This document shows, piece by piece, positions 3,217-51,569 of a stretch of 52,138 bases of DNA. The stretch spans positions 1 through 52,138 of the IMG/VR virus record IMGVR_UViG_3300044839_000032; one strand, written 5' to 3'. How positions within the stretch are numbered: position 1 is the stretch's first letter; every line of letters starts with the position of its first letter. The notes under the pieces are model-generated. The model saw only the letters and a list, made by a program, of their open reading frames with translations. It did not search any database and had not been told where the DNA came from. The translations under genes and the position numbers were made by a program. The stretch is from a virus.

Positions 3217-4893
3217 GTGACTAGAAAAGTCTCCGTTGAGGACATCCTTGAGTCACTGAAACAGACGCACATGCACGTGATCGGCAGTTCCGGTTACGGC
3301 AAGTCTAAGTTCCTCGAATGGCTCATGCGCCATTTGACCAAGTCCACGGACGCAGGCTTCTGCTTGTTCGACTGGCACGGGACGCTCTACCGAGACGTTC
3401 TCAGATACCTTGCCGGCACGGCCTTCAAACTCCGCCCGGTTTACATCCTTGATCCTTCGGACGGCCGTTTCGTGACCGGCTTCAACCCCTTCTCGACTAC
3501 CGACGAGGACATGAGTGCCCAGGTCTCTCGAAGGATCGATGCGACCGTCAAGCCGTGGGGAGCAACCTCGACCGACGAGACCCCCCAGCTCTCCCGCGTG
3601 CTTCGGATGCTCTACTCCTTCGCGGCCGAGGCTCACGCGACCTTGCCGAATGCCCACCTCATGCTCTATGCGGCAAACCAGAACCTTAGGACCTATGCCG
3701 CATCACTTGTGAAAGACGACTACATCCGGCAACAGCTCCGAGACTTTGCCGAGTTCTCCGATTCCTACTTGCGGCAATACGTCTCATCGACGATGAACCG
3801 ACTGGACCGGTTTCTCGCTCCTACCGCTGTGAGGAGAATGCTCGGCAGGGAATCCGGCAACATCTCTATCCGGCAGATACTCGACGAGAACGGCATCTTG
3901 CTTGTGAACCTCTCGGCATCAGGCAACCTCACCAGCGAATCCGGCAAGCTGATTGCCGCACTCCTCATGAACGAGTTTCGAGAAGCGGCACTTGCGAGAG
4001 CAGGGACGAAGAAGCGGTTCGTCCTCTTCCTCGATGAGTTCCAAGAGTACGTCACCCACGACATCGCGCAGATGTTGGACCAGGTCCGAAAAGGCGGGTT
4101 GAACCTCGTGCTATCGCACCAGCACCTGGCGCAGCTCGGCGACGATGAATCGCTCCAGTCCTCGATCGCGACGAATGCCCGGATCAAGGCTGTCTTTGGC
4201 GGGCTGGATTACGAGACTGCCGCGATGGTCGCAAACGAGATCCGCTTGAAGTCGATCAATCGCAGGCAGGTTGAACGGCAAATCTACGGCCACACGGTCC
4301 TCGGCCACTACGTCGAGACTTTCATCAACAAGAGCACGGGCTATGCATCAACCGAAAGCACCAGCGTGAACGCCAACGCGGGGCAAAGCGGCGGGTACGT
4401 GGACGACGAGCCGGAGGTTACGGGTTGGAGCGAGGCCGGCGGAACGACCACGACCTCGACCGACACGAACTCCAGCAGCGAAACCGAATCCCGGCTCCTG
4501 ATGCCGATCGACGGCAAGGAGCTGAAGTCCGAGCAGGCCGTCTCCCAGGCCGAGAAGATCGCGCACGAAGCCTTCAACATCATGACCATGAAACCCCGAG
4601 AGTTGTACCTAAAGCTCCCGGCCATGCCCCAGGCGGTTTGGCAGAGGGTTCCTGAGATCAAGAGCCGCGGCGTCTTTGCAGAGACCTTGAAAGCCTACGA
4701 AGAGAAGGCGTACGAACGTTCGCACGCCCTCCCGCCCGAAGAGGTCGATAAGGCGATGGTCCAATCCCGCGATGACTTCTTTCAAAAGGCTCTGAATTAC
4801 GGTGCGACCTTGAAGCCGAAGAAAGAAGACGGGACCGACGAGGCACCGAAAGAAGGTCGCACCAAAAAACCTCCGCGTCCGCGTTCCAATTAA
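3217..4893 (+). CDS. VirD4/TraD-like coupling ATPase (first copy)
   Basis: 558 residues. Walker A GSSGYGKS (23-30), Walker B VLFLDEFQE (about 268-276) and the later SHQHL Gln motif place it in the HerA/FtsK/VirD4 group of DNA-pumping RecA-like ATPases. In conjugation such proteins carry DNA-protein complexes to a secretion channel. No N-terminal membrane anchor is present, unlike most true VirD4 proteins, and the C-terminal third is low-complexity and charged. GTG start with AGGAGG 5 nt upstream. It follows the inverted-repeat segment and precedes the replication-relaxation gene. No relaxase or secretion-channel gene is in the window, so a role in phage replication, segregation or transfer of the excised form is open. 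Confidence 0.85.
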   Translation: MTRKVSVEDILESLKQTHMHVIGSSGYGKSKFLEWLMRHLTKSTDAGFCLFDWHGTLYRDVLRYLAGTAFKLRPVYILDPSDGRFVTGFNPFSTTDEDMSAQVSRRIDATVKPWGATSTDETPQLSRVLRMLYSFAAEAHATLPNAHLMLYAANQNLRTYAASLVKDDYIRQQLRDFAEFSDSYLRQYVSSTMNRLDRFLAPTAVRRMLGRESGNISIRQILDENGILLVNLSASGNLTSESGKLIAALLMNEFREAALARAGTKKRFVLFLDEFQEYVTHDIAQMLDQVRKGGLNLVLSHQHLAQLGDDESLQSSIATNARIKAVFGGLDYETAAMVANEIRLKSINRRQVERQIYGHTVLGHYVETFINKSTGYASTESTSVNANAGQSGGYVDDEPEVTGWSEAGGTTTTSTDTNSSSETESRLLMPIDGKELKSEQAVSQAEKIAHEAFNIMTMKPRELYLKLPAMPQAVWQRVPEIKSRGVFAETLKAYEEKAYERSHALPPEEVDKAMVQSRDDFFQKALNYGATLKPKKEDGTDEAPKEGRTKKPPRPRSN

Positions 4894-40293: not shown

Positions 40294-40385
40294 GACCCGA
40301 CCCGCCGCTTCGCAAACAGCGAGCTCCTCTTCCGCCGATCTACCGCCCCAAACAAGAACCGCTCTTCATCAACGACTCAAAGTGA
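40170..40385 (+). CDS. 71-residue protein, unknown
   Basis: From GTG 40170, with GGAG 7 nt upstream. FWAVYEGETLICLTVYLKGA is a beta-alpha pattern, then a basic, Pro-rich tail. ATGs are absent at the N-terminus. Ends overlapping the SSB ribosome site region. Confidence 0.6.
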   Translation: MFRYERYKKTRFWAVYEGETLICLTVYLKGALTLIERITGVRPDPPLRKQRAPLPPIYRPKQEPLFINDSK

Positions 40386-40399
40386 AAGGAGTGTCCCAA

Positions 40400-40786
40400 T
40401 TGTTCAACTACAACCGCGTCATCGTCAGTGGATACCTCGGCAAAGACCCGGAAACCGCTCCCGCCGGAGCAACTACCGCTACAAAGTTCTCCCTTGCTGT
40501 AACCGACCGCTGGAAGGACGCCGCCGGCGAGAAGCAGGAGCGGACCAACTGGCTCTCGATCGTCGTCTGGAACGGCAACGGCGAGAACGCTTCCCAGTAC
40601 CTCAGGAAGGGCTCCCACGTCCTCATCGAAGGCTCGCTCCGAACCTCCGAATGGGAAGACAAGGAATCCGGCCAGAAACGCTGGAAGACCGAAGTCCACG
40701 CCTCGCAGGTCATCTTCCTCGACAAGAAGCCGGACGAGACTCAGGCCTCTCTGCCTTCGACCTCCCGACGCAAGAAGGCCACATGA
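40400..40786 (+). CDS. ssb: Single-stranded DNA-binding protein (OB fold) without acidic tip
   Basis: 128 residues from TTG 40400 (AAAGGAG 8 nt upstream; in-frame GTGs at 40382 and 40391 are less well placed). YNRVIVSGYLGKDPE, TNWLSIVVW and GSHVLIEGSLRT are hallmarks of bacterial SSB OB folds. The C-terminus is SRRKKAT, basic, and lacks the acidic Pro-Phe tip that normally docks partner proteins. That tip occurs instead on the small protein at 12710-12991. Confidence 0.9.
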   Translation: MFNYNRVIVSGYLGKDPETAPAGATTATKFSLAVTDRWKDAAGEKQERTNWLSIVVWNGNGENASQYLRKGSHVLIEGSLRTSEWEDKESGQKRWKTEVHASQVIFLDKKPDETQASLPSTSRRKKAT

Positions 40787-42474: not shown

Positions 42475-42621
42475 GATTTAGGGGATAACTCGGCCTTGCA
42501 AGCCGCCGCCGCACAGGTACGATAGAAGAGTTCCCTTGGAAACTGCTTTCACCAGTTTCATCCTATTGTGGCGGATGGAACGCTCAGATGAGTCCGTGCC
42601 ACAATCACGGGCTCTTTTGTT
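42475..42621 (+). ncRNA. Second pseudoknotted RNA with terminator
   Basis: Helix a: GGGA-(TA)-ACTC (42482-42491) with GAGTTCCC (42528-42535), 8 bp. Helix b: CCGCC (506-510), ACA (513-515) and ATAG (522-525) with CTAT, TGT and GGCGG (563-574), 12 bp. Order a-b-a'-b' is a pseudoknot. Between a' and b' lies GAAACTG-CTTTCAC-CAGTTTC (539-559), a perfect 7-bp hairpin. A terminator closes the unit. No coding capacity. Promoter uncertain; TATATC at 42440 is a candidate -10. Confidence 0.55.
42590..42621 (+). terminator. Terminator of the second RNA
   Basis: GAGTCCGTG (42590-42598), loop, CACGGGCTC (42606-42614, one G-U), then TTTTGTTT. Strong intrinsic terminator. Confidence 0.88.
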
Positions 42622-42623
42622 TC

Positions 42624-43199
42624 TTGACTCCGGGTTTACGGTGCAACTCCAGACTCGTCGGTGAACACTCCGACGAAACCCGGCGTCAGGGCGCAAAGCT
42701 CTGAATGGTTGTGCGTTGATGGGGGAAGCGACGCGAAGATATTCGTGGAAGGCATGCCGACGAGACACCATACATGTCGGCTACCACGCGAGAGAATGGA
42801 CTAGGTGGTGTTGGAAAGTTCTCTCCTCCCCACCAGCGCACAACCGAGATCGTTCCTTGAAGCGAGAGAGATGTTTCGTGCCTCAAAAATGCGGAGGCGG
42901 GAAGCGAACCCGCCCATAACATCTAAAACACGAGGTTCCGCCGCAACTCTGACTACCTCTCTCACTTCAGCGAATTAGATCGCTGGGAACGCTCGCTAGA
43001 TAGAGCGCCGGATTTCTCCGGGAAGGTATCTAGCCCTTCGAAATACTCGACTCAACTCCGGCTCATGTCCGAGGAACACCAGTACCCTGACCTTTTCAGG
43101 GGTGGGCAACCCTCATGAGAGGAGGAAGGAGAGGAAGAAGGGGCCTGCCTTTGGTTCCAATGGGGGGAGCCGGTAGGGTGTCGCACAATATCTTTTTTA
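42624..43199 (+). ncRNA. Large ornate RNA candidate, about 575 nt
   Basis: No credible protein gene on either strand, yet dense helices: GAC-CCGGGTTT (42626-42637) with AAACCCGG-GTC (676-687) enclosing CGTCGG/CCGACG; GGTTGTGCG...GGGG (42707-42724) with CCCC...CGCACAACC (42828-42845), 17 of 18 paired; inside it CGTGG/CCACG, GCCGAC/GTCGGC and GAGAGAA/TTCTCTC; then AGATGTT/AACATCT around GGCGGG/CCCGCC; AGCGA/TCGCT; GCTAGATA/TATCTAGC (42995-43034) around CCGGA/TCCGG; CTCATG/CATGAG around CCCTGA/TCAGGG; GGTTCC/GGAGCC. A T6 run ends it. Size and phage setting recall ROOL and GOLLD RNAs, but I cannot show homology. Strand inferred from the T-run. Confidence 0.6.
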
Positions 43200-43206
43200 C
43201 GACATA

Positions 43207-44164: not shown

Positions 44165-44175
44165 AATGCCCGGTC

Positions 44176-44349
44176 GTGAACGCCGCCCAGCTCATTCTCG
44201 ACTACGTGGACTTTTGCGACCGGCGCGGCCCGGTTCTCGAACTCTCCGAGTACGTGGTCGTCTGGAGAGTAGCGAACGAGATCGCCGAGGAGACGGCGCC
44301 GGAGGATCGCGAAATGGTCCTCGCCAGCATCCTTCCGAACCGCGAGTAG
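44176..44349 (+). CDS. 57-residue hypothetical protein
   Basis: From GTG 44176: AAQLILDYVDFCDRRGPVLE, helical and acidic. Follows the HTH gene by 11 bp. The overlapping long frame from 44166 is a non-coding extension of the methyltransferase. Function unknown. Confidence 0.5.
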   Translation: MNAAQLILDYVDFCDRRGPVLELSEYVVVWRVANEIAEETAPEDREMVLASILPNRE

Positions 44350-44402
44350 CTCTCCATCCGGTAGAATCGCCCGAACTCCATGTCTTTCGAGGGGGCGGGT
44401 GG

Positions 44403-46028
44403 ATGAAGAATCTCCTCTACTACGGGGACAATCTAGATGTTCTGCGGCGGCACATCGACGACGAAGTCGCCGACCTTGTCTATTTGGACCCGCCCTTCAA
44501 CTCCAGCCAGGACTACAACGTCCTTTTTGCAGAGCATGACGGGACCAAGGCCGCTGCCCAAATCAAAGCTTTCGGTGACACTTGGAAGTGGGACGAGTCA
44601 GCCGCCCGCGCTTACCAAGAGGTAGTCGAGTCGGGCGGTCGGGTGTCCGAGGTTCTGCAGGCCTTTCGCGCATACCTCGACCGTACGGACATGCTTGCGT
44701 ATCTTTCCATGATGGCCCCGCGCCTCATTGAGCTGCGGCGGGTCATGAAGCCAACGGCGTCCATCTACCTTCATTGTGACGCGACCGCTAGCCACTACCT
44801 CAAGGTGGTCATGGATGCGACCTTCGGCCCTGAGAACTTCCGAAACGAGATCATCTGGCAGCGGACCCTCGCGAAAGGACTTCAGACCCGCAAGCTCGCA
44901 CAGAATCACGACGTAATCCTTGTTTACCAGAAGTCCGATCAGGCGTATTTCAATCTCGACTCTACCTTCCAGCCTTACGACGAGGATGACCTATCCGAGA
45001 AGACAGCCGGAAAGTACGCTTCCCGCGATGAAGACGGCCGGCGGTTCCAGCTCACCAGCCTCCTTAATCCGAACACCGACCGGCCGAACCTGAAGTATGA
45101 ATTCCTCGGCGTCACCCGCGTCTGGCGCTGGACGCAGGAGCGCATGCAGGCAGCCTATGAAGCGGGCTTCGTGATCCAGACTCAGCCCGGCACGGTCCCA
45201 CGGTTCAAGCGGTATCTCGACGAACAGCGAGGGATGCCACTCCACGACGTTTGGACCGACATCCCGCCCATCAACGCGCGCGCGAAGGAACGCCTCGGGT
45301 ATCCCACACAGAAGCCTGTCGCTCTTCTTGAGCGCATCGTGAACATTAGTTGTCCTCCGGGCGGCGTCGTGCTCGATCCATTCTGCGGTTGCGGGACGTC
45401 GATCTCCGCAGGCCAACGACTGGACCGTCCATGGATAGGAATCGACATCACTCACCTTGCTATAGGACTGATCCGAAGCCGTCTTCGCGGCGAGTTCGGC
45501 GAAGAGATCGCGAAGACATACCGGGTCATCGGCGAACCGACAACCGTAGAAGATGCGATGGAGCTCGCGCATGAAGACCCGTACCAGTTCCAATGGTGGG
45601 CGCTCGGTTTGGTCGGAGCCCGCCGGGACGAGGAAAAGAAGGGAGCCGACCGAGGTATCGACGGCAAACTCGCCTTTCACGACGAGGGTCTTGCCGGGAA
45701 AACGAAGAACGTCGTCATCTCCGTCAAAGCCGGGAAGCTTCACGCGAACCACGTGCGGGACTTGCGCGGAGTCATCGAAAGAGACCGCGCCGAGATCGGC
45801 GTGCTTATTTCGATGGAAGAACCCACGAAGCCGATGCGGTCGGAAGCAGCGAACGCAGGTTTCTACAAGTCGCCGTATGGCACCGACCACCCCCGGCTCC
45901 AGTTCCTCACTATCCACGATCTTCTCCACGGGAAAGGCATCGACTACCCAGCTCCCAGGCAGACTAACGTCACGACCAAACGCGCACGCCGTCACGTGAA
46001 GGATGACGAAGCCCGCAAGCTTTTTTAA
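44403..46028 (+). CDS. DNA methyltransferase fused to an Mrr-like nuclease domain
   Basis: 541 residues from ATG 44403 (GGGGGCGGG upstream). Motif IV DPPF (29-32) precedes the S-adenosylmethionine motif DPFCGCGTS (about 322-330), the beta-class order of N6-adenine or N4-cytosine enzymes, similar to type III Mod. After about residue 400 comes GADRGIDGK (about 414) and VISVKAGKLHANHVRDL (about 438), the D...(S)xK pattern of Mrr-type PD-(D/E)XK nucleases. One chain may thus both mark and cut. It could protect phage DNA and attack rivals or the host. Fusion type is known in bacteria; in a phage beside the integrase it is notable. Confidence 0.85.
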   Translation: MKNLLYYGDNLDVLRRHIDDEVADLVYLDPPFNSSQDYNVLFAEHDGTKAAAQIKAFGDTWKWDESAARAYQEVVESGGRVSEVLQAFRAYLDRTDMLAYLSMMAPRLIELRRVMKPTASIYLHCDATASHYLKVVMDATFGPENFRNEIIWQRTLAKGLQTRKLAQNHDVILVYQKSDQAYFNLDSTFQPYDEDDLSEKTAGKYASRDEDGRRFQLTSLLNPNTDRPNLKYEFLGVTRVWRWTQERMQAAYEAGFVIQTQPGTVPRFKRYLDEQRGMPLHDVWTDIPPINARAKERLGYPTQKPVALLERIVNISCPPGGVVLDPFCGCGTSISAGQRLDRPWIGIDITHLAIGLIRSRLRGEFGEEIAKTYRVIGEPTTVEDAMELAHEDPYQFQWWALGLVGARRDEEKKGADRGIDGKLAFHDEGLAGKTKNVVISVKAGKLHANHVRDLRGVIERDRAEIGVLISMEEPTKPMRSEAANAGFYKSPYGTDHPRLQFLTIHDLLHGKGIDYPAPRQTNVTTKRARRHVKDDEARKLF

Positions 46029-46044: not shown

Positions 46045-47199
46045 TTACGCGCCGCCCTGAATCACTTTGAACTTTTGCTGTTGCTTCGGCCACGTTGCCC
46101 GGACACGTTCCGTGAGCCGCACTTGTCTGGCCTGAACCCACGCTGAGTAGTGCTTCTCGACGATCTTCACCGAGTTGCCGAGGATCGCGGCTACGTCCTC
46201 GATAGGAACGCCGTTCGCCAAAAGGCTGGTTGCGAGGGTGTCCCTGAATCTGTGGGCGACCATCATGTTCGTTCCCTTCGAAACGCGAGCGTCCTTCAGC
46301 ACTCTCCGAAGGGTTCTCTGCCAGCTTGAAACGGCCGACAGGGGCTTGCCGTTGCCCGACCAGAAAAAGTAACGGGAGTTACTGTTCTTCGTCGCTTGGT
46401 ACCTGAGCGCATCAGCCACATCAGGCGGAAGAGGCACGAACACCGCTTGCCCCGTCTTTCCCGTCCGAAGCATCAGGTCATCGCCATGCAACCGCTCAGT
46501 TTCGAGACAGGTTGCGTCCTGAATCCTGAGTCCCGAATACCGAAGCAAGAGGACGAAGCACTTGATCCGGTCCGGCCGGTTGTGGCCGTGGTCCCCGTGA
46601 TGCGAATACTTCTCGCACGCCGTGATGATCCGGCCCATTTCCTGATCTGTGTACGGCAGGGTTGGGGGTTCGTCGATCTCAGGGGTTTTGAACTCAGCCG
46701 CCGTATTTTTCGCGATCCACTCAGCAGCGGTGCAGAAGCCCATGAACTGCTTCAGAAGCTCCAGCCGTTTCGCGGCAGTCGCCGGCATCATCTTCCATGA
46801 CGCCTTGAAGGTCGCCAGCTCCGCAAAGGTCAGCTGCTTCACGTATCTAAAGCCCCTGCCTTCGCACCAGGAGACCACCTGACGGCCGATGAACCTCCGG
46901 TAGAGGCGCATGGAGCTTTCGGCTAGGTTCCGGCTCTCAGCCTCAGCCAGGAACAGTTTCGTGGCTTCCTCGATTGTGACGAGCTTCTGATAGCCCCCGC
47001 CGATCTTGCCGGACTTGATCCACTCTCTAATCTCGTTCTGCGCGGCCTCCCACGAGGTCTGGTCCATGTTCCGGCGAACCGACTCTCCACCGAGGGAGCC
47101 TTCAACGTAGATAGGACAGGCGCAACGCCGGTAGCTTCTGCCTCGTTTCGGATTCTCTTTCTGGCATGCGGTTCCGTGCCGCCGATACAGCGTGAGCAT
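46045..47199 (-). CDS. int: Tyrosine recombinase (integrase)
   Basis: 384 residues. C-terminal catalytic residues: Arg225 (YSGLRIQDA), Lys248, His316-x-x-Arg319 (AHRFRD) and nucleophile Tyr351 (KHYSAW). The usual second His is Asn342 (ILGNS), a tolerated variant. The N-terminus (LYRRHGTACQ, RRCACPIYVEG) has a Cys-containing arm-binding region that I associate with Acidobacteriota integrases. It starts about 95 bp from the attachment repeat and tRNA-Phe, and would recombine attP with the tRNA 3' end. Confidence 0.93.
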   Translation of the reverse strand: MLTLYRRHGTACQKENPKRGRSYRRCACPIYVEGSLGGESVRRNMDQTSWEAAQNEIREWIKSGKIGGGYQKLVTIEEATKLFLAEAESRNLAESSMRLYRRFIGRQVVSWCEGRGFRYVKQLTFAELATFKASWKMMPATAAKRLELLKQFMGFCTAAEWIAKNTAAEFKTPEIDEPPTLPYTDQEMGRIITACEKYSHHGDHGHNRPDRIKCFVLLLRYSGLRIQDATCLETERLHGDDLMLRTGKTGQAVFVPLPPDVADALRYQATKNSNSRYFFWSGNGKPLSAVSSWQRTLRRVLKDARVSKGTNMMVAHRFRDTLATSLLANGVPIEDVAAILGNSVKIVEKHYSAWVQARQVRLTERVRATWPKQQQKFKVIQGGA

Positions 47200-47295
47200 G
47201 TCGCCCTCCGAACAGCATTGTTGGGCGAACCACGCAAATCACACTCAACACCGTTGCTCCAGAAGCTAAACCACTGATTCCTAAGAGGATAAAAG

Positions 47296-47371
<76 letters not shown>

Positions 47372-47457: not shown

Positions 47458-48351
47458 TCAGCGGGTGCGGTCGCGGACGATCGTGGCGAGGTCGCGGAGC
47501 GGGGCGGCGGCAGGGCCGAGGTTGGAGATCGAGGAGAGCGACGTCTCGACGAGTTCGTCGCTGAGCTTCTTCGCGCCGTCGACGCCGGCGAGTTTGACGA
47601 ACGTCAGGCGGTCGGTGTCTTTGCCGACGTCTTTGCCGAGTTGTTCGGGACTGCCCACCACGTCGAGGATGTCGTCGGTGATCTGGAACGCCAGGCCGAG
47701 GTTCTTGGCGAAGATCTCGATGCGTCCGAGGGCGGCGGGCGAGGTGTTGGCGAGCATTGCGCCGACGGCGGCGGCGGCGACGAAGAGCGCGCCGGTTTTG
47801 CGGGAGTGGATGAATTCGAGCGTATCGAAATCGAGGCGCGACGTTTCGCTGTGCAGGTCGACCGCTTCGCCGGCGATCGTGCCGTCCCAGCCGACGGCAT
47901 CGACGACGCGTTTGATCACCTGCAGCATCGGCCACTGACGCGGCGTCAGCGCCGCGTAGTTCTTCGCCACGAGTCCATATGCGTGATTGAGAAGCGCGAC
48001 CGACGACAGAATCGCCAGGTCCTCGCCGAATTCGCGATGCAATGTCGGTTGTCCGCGGCGGAGGAGCGCGTCGTCCATCGACGGCAGGTCATCGAGGATC
48101 AGCGACGACGCGTGGATCATCTCCATCGCCGCGGCAGCGTCGGCGAGTTTCTCCGGTTTGCAGCCGGCCGCCTCCCCTGCCGCCATCAGCAGGACGCCGC
48201 GCACGCGCTTGCCGGATGAGGTCAGCGCGCGCTTGAGAGGATCGGCCAGCGGCTTCGGGGCGCCGGCGCGAAGGGCGATGTTTTTGAGCGTTTCGTCGAT
48301 CAGCGCGCGCCGCGCCGCGAAGTAGTCGTTCACTCGGGCGCATGGTAGCAT
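47458..48351 (-). CDS. Polyprenyl (farnesyl/geranylgeranyl-type) synthetase (host)
   Basis: Up to 297 residues; GTG 48333 is an alternative start. First Asp-rich motif [16 protein letters not shown] and second [11 protein letters not shown] identify a trans-prenyltransferase joining isopentenyl units head to tail. The length and DDxxxxD form of the first motif resemble bacterial farnesyl or geranylgeranyl diphosphate synthases. Product chain length cannot be fixed by eye. Confidence 0.9.
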
Positions 48352-48377
48352 CGGCCCACTTCGGCAACGGGAACTCT

Positions 48378-51300
48378 ATGAACCTGAGACACTTCGGGCG
48401 CGCGCAGCAGATGTGGCTGCTGGTCGCTGCCTGCTTCGGCATGTTCGCGTTGTTCCTGCTCCTGGTGCCGGGAATGACGTTCGCGCTTTGGTGGCCGACG
48501 ATGCTCGCGGCGCTCGTGGCCTGCGCCATCACCGTCATGGCGTTTCAGTGGTGGCTGGGCGCGGTACTGGCCCGGCGCGACTCCTCGATCCAACTTCTGA
48601 ATCGCATCACCGCGGGCGATTTATCGATCGCCGCGCGCGAAATTCAACTGACCACGCAATCGGCGCGGATGTCCGCGGCGATGCGCGCATTGGTGTCGAA
48701 TCTGGAGCGGACCATCCGCCGTTTCGCGCAGCTCGCCACCGACGTCGCAACGGCCAGTGGCCAAATCAGCGGACGTTCGCGCGTGCTCGCGCGCGGCGCC
48801 GGCGAGCAACTCGTCTCGACCGAATCGACCTCGGCGTCGGTCGGCCAGATCGACCAGACCATCAACAACGTGCGCACGTCGATGGAGGAGCTGTCCGCGA
48901 ATGCCGAGGAGACGTCGACCTCGGTGCTGGAGATGTCGGCGTCGATCGAGGAGGTCAGCCGCATCGCCGACACGCTGGCCGAGTTCGTGGAGCAAACGTC
49001 GTCCGCATTCGAAGAGATGAGCGCATCGATCTCGCAGGTCGCGGCGAACACGGAAAGCTTCTCGTCGTTCGCGACACAGACCGCCAGCTCGATGGTGGAG
49101 ATGAATGCGACCACCGAGGAGATCGGCAAGTCCGCGAAGCAATCGGCGGAGCTCGCGCGCTACGTGAAGGACGCCGCAAGCGAAGGACGCGTCGCCGTCA
49201 GCGGCACCGTCGAAGGAATGCGCAAGATTCAGGTCGCCGTCGACGAGGCGAAAGCCGCGCTCGGCGAGCTGGCCAATCGGTCGCAGGAGATCGGCGAGAT
49301 CGTGCGCGTCATCGACGAGATCGCGGGTCAGACCAATTTGCTCGCGCTGAACGCCGCGATCATTGCCGCGCAGGCTGGCGAGCGCGGAAAAGGATTCGCG
49401 GTGGTCGCCGACGAGATCCGCGATCTCTCCGAGCGCACCTCGGTATCGACTGACGAAATCCGCACGCTGATTCAGAACGTGCAGCGTGCTGTCGATCGCG
49501 CCGCCGAGCAGATGACCATCAGCAGCGATCGCGTGTTCGACGGCGTGGCGCTGACCGCGCGCGCGGAACAGACGCTCGACAAGATCCTCGACATGACCGC
49601 GCGCTCGACGAACTCGATCGCCGAGATTGCGCGTGCGACCGAGGAGCAGTCGCGCGGCAGCAAGGCGGCAACGGCGGCGATCGAAGAAGTGACGAAGATG
49701 GTGCAGCAGACGGCGAGCGCGACGCAGCAGCAGTCGCAGACGGCGCGCAAAGTCGGCGAGCAGACGTCGATGGTGCGCGACTACACCAAGCACCTCAAGC
49801 GCGCGATGTCGGAGCAGGAAACGGGTAGCCGCGCCATCAGCCGGGCCATGGAAAACATCATGGGCCTCGTGCAGAACGTTCTCGAATCAACCTCGGTGCT
49901 GGCAACCGAAAGCTCGGCCATCGTGAAGGCGATGGGCGTGATCCAGCAGGCCACGCGCGAGTCGAATGTGTCGATCGGCGATCTCAATCAGATGGCCAAC
50001 ACGCTGTCGCATGAGTCGACGCTGCTGAATTCGGAGCTGGATCGCTTCACGCTGCCGACGCCGACCGAGGGTGGCAAGCTGACGACATCCACGGTGCTGT
50101 GGCAGCAACTGACGCTCGATCCGATCCAGGTCGGAGCTGCGGCCCTCGGATACATGTCGAAGACGATTCACGCGCACCTGGTGATGTACGGCGAAGGCGC
50201 GGAGCTGATTCCCGGACTCGCCGAGCGCTGGGAAGTGCTCGAGCAAGGACACGTCTACCGATTCCATCTGCGTCATGGCGTCCGCTTCCACAACGGGCGC
50301 ACGCTCGAAGCGAAAGATGTTCACGACTCACTCGTGCGGCTGCTGCTTCCCGAACTGAATTCGCAGTCGAGCTGGATCATGCGCGAGGTGCGCGGCGCGG
50401 CGGACGTAATCGCGGGCCGCACGCGCACGCTTTCCGGAATCCAGGTTCACGATCAACACACGGTAGACATCATCCTCGATGAGCCGCTGGCGTTTTTCCT
50501 GTCGCTGCTGACGATGCACGAAGCCGCGATCATTCCGGCCGAGGAAGCGCGCGATCCGGAGCGCTTCCGGCTGCACCCCGTCGGCGCCGGTCCGTTCCGT
50601 TTGGCCGAGGCGACGGAGGGCGAACGCGTTCGCGTGCAGCGCAATCGCGACTACTACGTTCCCGGCATCCCGCATCTCGACGAGCTGGAGTTCCGGCTCG
50701 ACCTGCGCAGCTTCCGCGACGTGGCCGAGGCGTTTCTCCGCGGCGAGGTGGACGTCGCGCATGGCGTGCCGCTGAACATCGTCAGCGAGCTTCGCACCGA
50801 TCCGCGCATCGCGCCGTACATTCTGACCACGATCCAATTGCACACGTCGTACTTCGGCTACGACTGCACCGTTGCGCCGTTCAACCGCGTGGAAGTGCGG
50901 CAGGCGATCAATCACGCCATCAACCGCGACCGGATTAACGAGCGCGTCTTCGCCGGCCTCGGCGTCGTGGCGAAGTCGCTGCTGCCGCCCGGACTCCTCG
51001 GCTACGACGCGAATCTGCGCGGCATCGAACACGATCCGGAACGCGCTCGTTCACTGCTGCGCCAGGCCGGAGTCAGCGGACTCCGCGTCGAGTACCGCAC
51101 GTGGGACACGGACGAGTTCAACAACTCCGGCCAGCTTCCGCTGATCATCGAAGACCTCGCCGCAATCGGCATCGATGTAAACGTGACCATGCATTCCGCG
51201 GTCGATGCGCGCAAGCCGCTGTTCAAGCCGGGACACGGCACGTTCTACTGCGCCAACTGGTATGCCGACTTCCCCGACTCCGACAATTTCTTCTACGTCT

Positions 51301-51569
51301 TCTTCCACAGCGACGCGCGTTCCGCGCGAGGCCTCTATTTCAGTAGCGCCGCCGTCGACGCGCAGATCATCGAGGCGCGGCGGACGAATGATCCCGATCG
51401 CCGCGCGGAGATTTACCGGCAACTCAATCAAATGGTGATCCGCGAAGCACCGCTGGCGACGCTGTTCCACGAGCGCTTCTTCGTACTGCAGAAGCCGGAA
51501 GTGCGCGGACTGCGGACGTCGCTGGCGCCGCCGCCGGTGCGGTATCACGGGACGTGGATCGAGGAGTAA
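48378..51569 (+). CDS. Chemoreceptor signalling domain fused to a peptide-type solute-binding domain (host)
   Basis: 1063 residues from ATG 48378. Two membrane spans (about 12-32 and 36-56) are followed by a short HAMP-like stretch, then the long methyl-accepting coiled coil with the tip [15 protein letters not shown] (about 312) and [16 protein letters not shown]. From about 570 to the end comes an SBP_bac_5 (oligopeptide/nickel-binding) domain: [33 protein letters not shown]-like opening and [14 protein letters not shown]. In normal receptors a binding domain is outside the cell; here it follows the cytoplasmic domain, so it probably sits in the cytoplasm. An intracellular solute sensor is likely. 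Confidence 0.88.

Follow-up and report, generated by a model that had tools for sequence, protein, structure and literature searches.

Does the gene-free, densely folded stretch that precedes the integrase end of this prophage encode a large structured RNA and, if so, of which kind? The initial annotation had placed a candidate large ornate RNA at 42624-43199. The window analyzed here, i.e., the whole stretch of 52,138 nucleotides, is a virus record holding a complete prophage (1514-47316) that is bounded by a 24-bp exact direct repeat (attL/attR, 1514-1537 and 47293-47316) matching the 3′ end of tRNA-Phe, the gene of which is the insertion site. The integrase gene (46045-47199) adjoins the 47293-47316 repeat, and the capsid and terminase genes lie between attL and attR. 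The phage is temperate and its host is an uncultured soil bacterium of the Acidobacteriota (Thermoanaerobaculia); the right-hand host gene is 92% identical to its counterpart in Acidobacteriota genome L004 and 64-87% identical in Thermoanaerobaculia and group 7 genomes. The RNA locus is found among small genes, downstream of the SSB gene (40382-40786) and before the methyltransferase-integrase end, with the integrase and attR some 3-4 kb away.

Some other genes of the window were noted. Near the integrase, one gene (44166-46028) encodes a DNA methyltransferase joined to an Mrr-like endonuclease domain. In this tailed phage, the segment 3217-7321 encodes two coupling ATPases resembling those of conjugation (phrog_5156, TrwB/TraG type), and a host gene (48342-51569) encodes a methyl-accepting chemotaxis domain and an extracellular solute-binding domain fused in one protein of 1075 aa, the solute-binding part of which is kept in Thermoanaerobaculia.

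The region 42624-43199 has a minimum free energy of -234.6 kcal/mol, whereas its dinucleotide shuffles averaged -198.4 ± 7.3 kcal/mol and none of 100 folded as well (z = -5.0). Two helices singled out previously were recovered exactly where they had been placed, namely 42707-42724/42828-42845 (17/18 pairs) and 42995-43002/43027-43034 (GCTAGATA/TATCTAGC, 8/8 pairs), and a protein-family scan of the internal frames gave no match, in agreement with the claim that no protein frame is convincing there. Since the opposite strand gives a good fold too (z = -4.2), folding alone leaves the strand undecided, and homologues were therefore sought.

Seven further copies were identified, making eight in all; one of the seven lies in an Acidobacteriota genome, and the other six come from metagenomic phage records. 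Independent routes led to them, through the 3′ domain, through the 5′ linker, and through an arm hairpin. The closest comes from a phage (G001) with a capsid 100% identical and a terminase 95% identical to those of the window phage; the 3′ part of its RNA (42962-43191) has 97% identity, while the middle is almost wholly different. The genomic copy (G004, Thermoanaerobaculia) has only one arm and measures 370 nt, and patterns made from the conserved parts retrieved G407 (L137/L153), L149, L150, L151, and L274 from IMG/VR. Lengths from the first hairpin to the assigned 3′ end range from 370 to 920 nt, and forward-strand folding z-scores from -2.9 to -6.4 across all eight copies. A covariance model of the 5′ domain (CM R1) scores 73-84 bits on its seven source copies, by construction; for L274, which was found independently, it gives 41 bits (E 1.5e-5). 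When 396 genomes of the phylum were searched with CM R1 and with a model of a 3′ helix (CM R2, helix P-F), G004 was the only one detected, as it was when CM R1 was run on 149 genomes of the class; weaker P-F model hits (≤25 bits) were rejected. Used as a BLAST query, the RNA gave nothing beyond chance matches in 50,697 phage and 72,556 plasmid records, and protein-anchored searches from two neighboring genes found nothing. With a relaxed hairpin pattern, the matches listed were AT-rich chance hits only, the best of which (L171, 30 bits) was rejected.

The RNA gene lies by SSB-integrase or primase modules, and the coupling ATPase family noted in the window (phrog_5156) adjoins the RNA in G407 and G004. 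Homologues of the window-phage capsid and terminase were detected only in G001 and not in the other six carriers, although these records may be fragments. The RNA thus seems to travel between phage backbones and to behave as a self-contained mobile gene.

Comparison of the copies extended the element upstream. A 72-nt 5′ domain that had escaped the initial annotation is common to all eight copies and carries two hairpins at 42555-42614. The folded region delimited earlier therefore stands, and its start does not: the element begins approximately 95 nt before 42624 and spans about 42530-43200, roughly 670 nt (all features below are on the + strand). A candidate promoter, TTGCAA-16-TACGAT, is located at 42496-42523, with a putative transcript start near 42530. 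It was not called by the promoter scan because it matches only 8/12 consensus bases; a TANGAT hexamer is nevertheless present upstream of the first hairpin in most homologues, and a TTG-like -35 in several.

The first hairpin, H1 (42555-42581), has a stem GTTTCATC/GATGGAAC and a loop containing ATTGTGG (42565-42571). All 8 stem pairs form in 8/8 homologues, two of them with double changes, and the stem is covered by CM R1. The second, H2 (42590-42614, GAGTCCGTG/CACGGGCTC), bears the loop CCACAAT (42599-42605), the full complement of the H1 loop. This relation holds in every copy: all 6 or 7 nt of the H2 loop have their complement in the H1 loop, and seven different sequences occur. All six kissing pairs are changed on both sides, 100% of the cells are paired, and 0/500 shuffles reach the score; none of 5039 permutations did so in a test of loop complementarity. 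For the whole 5′ structure, the covariation score was 0.649, compared with 0.226 ± 0.036 when shuffled and at most 0.179 when slid. The extract scored contained the gap-free 5′ elements, with G001 and G407 (identical there) as one row. Its boundaries were set manually to fit the proposed pairs; this favors pairing percentages but cannot create double changes, and the sample is only eight copies, seven of them independent at the kissing loops. In most copies H1 and H2 also contain U-G pairs on the + strand that would be A-C mismatches on the opposite one; these and the upstream hexamer, which points the same way, assign the RNA to the + strand.

We regard an H1-H2 kissing interaction as highly probable. 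Which molecules it joins is less certain, and we lean towards a contact between molecules, since the H1-H2 linkers of 5-8 nt cannot easily span the approximately 23-26 stacked pairs (our own geometry estimate, not a model). The alternative that survives best is that the two hairpins kiss within one molecule, the RNA being a monomeric scaffold or a ribonucleoprotein core, like HEARO or raiA, and not an assembly unit. Adjacent hairpins are each other's nearest partners, and monomers are known among large structured RNAs, raiA being an example (PMC12286853), but the short linkers are hard to reconcile with a coaxial kissing stack that we estimate at ~65-70 Å. A bent intramolecular kiss is not excluded, and we keep the single-molecule reading as a possible, less favored one.

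H2 is followed by a linker (42615-42627, conserved TTTTGTTTCTTGA) in which TTTGTTTCTTGA is identical in 7/8 homologues; L274 has TTTTGTTT, with a tRNA next. This arrangement also raises the possibility that the 5′ domain stands alone as a small RNA or attenuator, with an intrinsic terminator formed by H2 and TTTTGTTTC, and that the long RNA arises by occasional read-through. The terminator scan does call H2 a terminator-like hairpin, and the T-rich tract is present in 8/8 copies. Against this, two terminator-like sites were found where 1.0 is expected by chance, the TTGA of the linker belongs to the arm helix and shows conservation exceeding that of a U-tract, and arms come next in all eight copies. 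We consider an attenuator improbable and retain a 5′ domain that is part of one long RNA.

The middle of the RNA consists of arms joined by linkers. Arm A (42625-42688) has the base helix TGACTCCGGGTTT/AAACCCGGCGTCA, which is rebuilt with other sequence in the homologues, and is closed by a hairpin (42687-42703, CAGGGC-GCAAA-GCTCTG) that is near-identical in most of them. Arm B (42707-42845, 139 nt) has the base helix GGTTGTGCGTTGATGGGG/CCCCACCAGCGCACAACC (17/18 pairs); a similar base occurs in G001 and L149 and is absent from G004, G407, L150, L151, and L274. A repeated linker, GTTCCTTGA (42852-42860), precedes arm C (42859-42968; base GAAGCGAGAGAG/CTCTCTCACTTC), and GTTYYTTGA stands ahead of arms in the window, G001, G407, L149, and L150. 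The equivalent of the arm C base is TTGAGTGATGGGT/ACCCATCACTCAG in G001 and is also found in G407 and L150. Arm C is followed by another hairpin (42968-42985, CAGCGA-ATTAGA-TCGCTG), the stem of which is identical in five homologues. A common layout emerges: a TTGA-type linker start, usually a TCAG end, and then either a GGGCGCAA(A)GCTC or a CAGCGA/TCGCTG hairpin. The base helices (7-14 pairs) are of new sequence in the copies compared, and the arms differ strongly even between near-identical phages, changing much faster than the capsid gene, which suggests to us either selection for novelty in the arms or a free exchange of modules.

By our reading of the sequences, G004, L151, and L274 each have a single arm, G407 and L150 have two, the window and G001 have three, and L149 has about five; on the same evidence alone, the L150 and L151 arms open with a tRNA-Leu-like D-arm carrying the class II motif TGGCGGAATAGGTAGACG or one close to it. 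In L274, arm A is replaced by a tRNA-Trp(CCA) with a CCA end and a weak D-arm (L274:3388-3460, - strand), and one G001 arm ends in a T-arm and acceptor strand. Matches to the L151 arm in two phages were rejected; the sites lie outside tRNA genes. These resemblances are what speaks for a decaying tRNA array, in which the arms would be tRNA genes and the remainder spacer hairpins. However, ARAGORN recognized a tRNA in 1/8 copies and found none in the other seven, the Rfam tRNA model misses the L150 and L151 arms, only the L274 and G001 arms are clearly tRNA-like, and covarying kissing loops and a pseudoknot are not expected of spacers. We consider such an array very unlikely and continue to treat the arms as exchangeable parts of a structured RNA.

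The 3′ domain is of more than one type. Type I is found in the window, G001, G407, G004, and L151 (four effectively independent), L150 and L274 share an alternative (type II, 80% over 80 nt), and that of L149 is neither. In type I, compensatory changes were observed in helices P-F, P-H, and P-G. Helix P-F (42996-43033), CTAGATA/TATCTAG around CCGGATTTCTCCGG, becomes CTGGCCG/CGGCCAG in G004, with four double changes. The P-H hairpin (43085-43101, CCCTGA-CCTTT-TCAGGG) is CCAGCA/TGCTGG in G004, CCCTGG/CCAGGG in L151, and CCTGA/TCAGG in G407. P-G (43058-43173) pairs CCGGCTC (43058-43064) with GAGCCGG (43167-43173), and is replaced by CGGCTCC/GGAGCCG in G004 and CCGACTC/GAATCGG (6/7) in L151; it is not clear in G407. 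P-I (43034-43143), predicted by RNAalifold, pairs CCCTTC (43034-43039) with GAAGGGG (43137-43143); it is nearly invariant and shows no covariation, and is therefore neutral evidence. Because P-G crosses P-I, a pseudoknot results in most type I copies. The palindrome CTCATGAG, within CCTCATGAGAGG at 43111-43122, is kept in 4/5 type I copies and could provide a self-complementary contact.

The 3′ edge (43178-43198) consists of the conserved GTGTCGCACAATAT, where GTCGCA[C/T]AATAT occurs in 5/5 type I copies, followed by a non-conserved T6; conservation ends at CACAATAT (43184-43191). The T6 run that had been taken as the end is indeed present (43193-43198), but it is missing in G001 and G407, and the 3′ end of the RNA is not settled. 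In G001 only, a small HNH-like gene lies directly after the conserved edge (L089, about 4200-4480, by inspection).

Covariation among homologues had been named beforehand as the test of the ornate RNA proposal, and it proved strong; with no convincing protein frame, the proposal is borne out. The comparisons establish, as a predicted structure, conserved base pairing of the + strand, with 5′ hairpins bearing complementary loops, linker-joined exchangeable arms, and a 3′ domain. That this is a real structured RNA family is, in our judgment, close to certain. An element acting at the DNA level (origin, packaging, or recombination site) can be dismissed almost entirely, for although it would fit the nearby integrase and attR (~3-4 kb) and the folding of both strands, it does not explain G-U pairs on one strand, a conserved upstream hexamer, or complementary hairpin loops.

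We next asked whether the family is already known. No Rfam model, ROOL and GOLLD included, matched the window or six of the seven homologues (permissive thresholds were used for the window, for G001 and G004, and for the arm regions of L150 and L151), the sole match being the tRNA in L274. Membership in ROOL or GOLLD is thus unsupported, and of the two options offered initially, a distant member or a new class, only the latter is supported. Group I introns, tmRNA, RNase P, and other known RNAs were excluded in the absence of an Rfam or ARAGORN match, and a cis-regulatory leader was rejected because the downstream genes vary between copies and the next gene in the window is convergent. Open-access literature searches found no description of the family.

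With some reservation, we favor the interpretation that the phage encodes a large structured noncoding RNA from a family not described before, and that this RNA assembles and displays its arms. The RNA would be transcribed from its own promoter, as inferred from a weak consensus match without transcript data. H1 of one molecule would then kiss H2 of another, and copies joined head to tail may build up a ring or a larger particle, in the way that phi29 pRNA does, although there are no oligomer data. On such an assembly, the rapidly changing arms, some of which are tRNAs or derive from tRNAs, would be presented during infection and serve as binding modules or decoys. Self-assembly in the manner of phi29 pRNA or of ROOL/GOLLD is an untested best guess by analogy, based on the short linkers that make intermolecular kissing more likely; the kissing hairpins make a cage plausible without demonstrating one. 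That the arms serve as decoys or cargo is a guess, and their action as bait or decoy remains a doubtful proposition. Only tentatively, then, do we suggest the full scheme, a new self-assembling phage RNA class in which 5′ kissing drives head-to-tail multimers that display exchangeable arms (captured tRNAs among them) either as protein-binding cargo or as decoys against a host defense that targets tRNAs.

To our knowledge, very few giant phage RNA families exist, their function is open, and the two that have been solved form RNA-only cages. The present RNA would add another, independent family. Loop swaps offer a built-in test of self-assembly, with natural versions of ~370 to 920 nt, and the natural arm-swap series, which includes a copy with a real tRNA, makes the role of the arms directly testable.

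Among known systems, phi29 pRNA carries two mutually complementary loops in one RNA, whose sequences can change while complementarity is kept and which interlock in head-to-tail ring assembly. The new RNA has this trait of two complementary loops; it differs in being much longer, in having the loops on adjacent hairpins, and in lacking an Rfam match, and there are no data on a packaging role. HEARO/omega RNA is likewise a large structured RNA, and the HNH-like gene following the RNA in G001 recalls it, but that gene adjoins one copy only, no Rfam model matched, and no IscB/IsrB-type nuclease was among the flanking proteins scanned. GOLLD is a large phage/prophage RNA, often near tRNAs, with conserved and variable regions and kissing loops (PMC12286853); these regions and loops are shared, whereas its universal conserved 3′ and variable 5′ parts are not, as the new RNA (0.37-0.92 kb) has a constant part that includes the 5′ end (8/8 copies), a variable middle, and more than one kind of 3′ domain. 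ROOL, of about 660 nt, is similar in size and is also phage-borne and pseudoknotted, with inter-subunit kissing loops, and both ROOL and GOLLD cages use intermolecular kissing loops; modular arms of the present kind are not described for ROOL in that report (PMC12286853). The likeness to these cage-building RNAs appears to be one of style only, without sequence relation. The new RNA meets the description of a large ornate phage RNA (>300 nt, intricate covarying structure, phage-borne, and noncoding, with transcription inferred), and we file it as a new family within that known kind, separate from ROOL and GOLLD.
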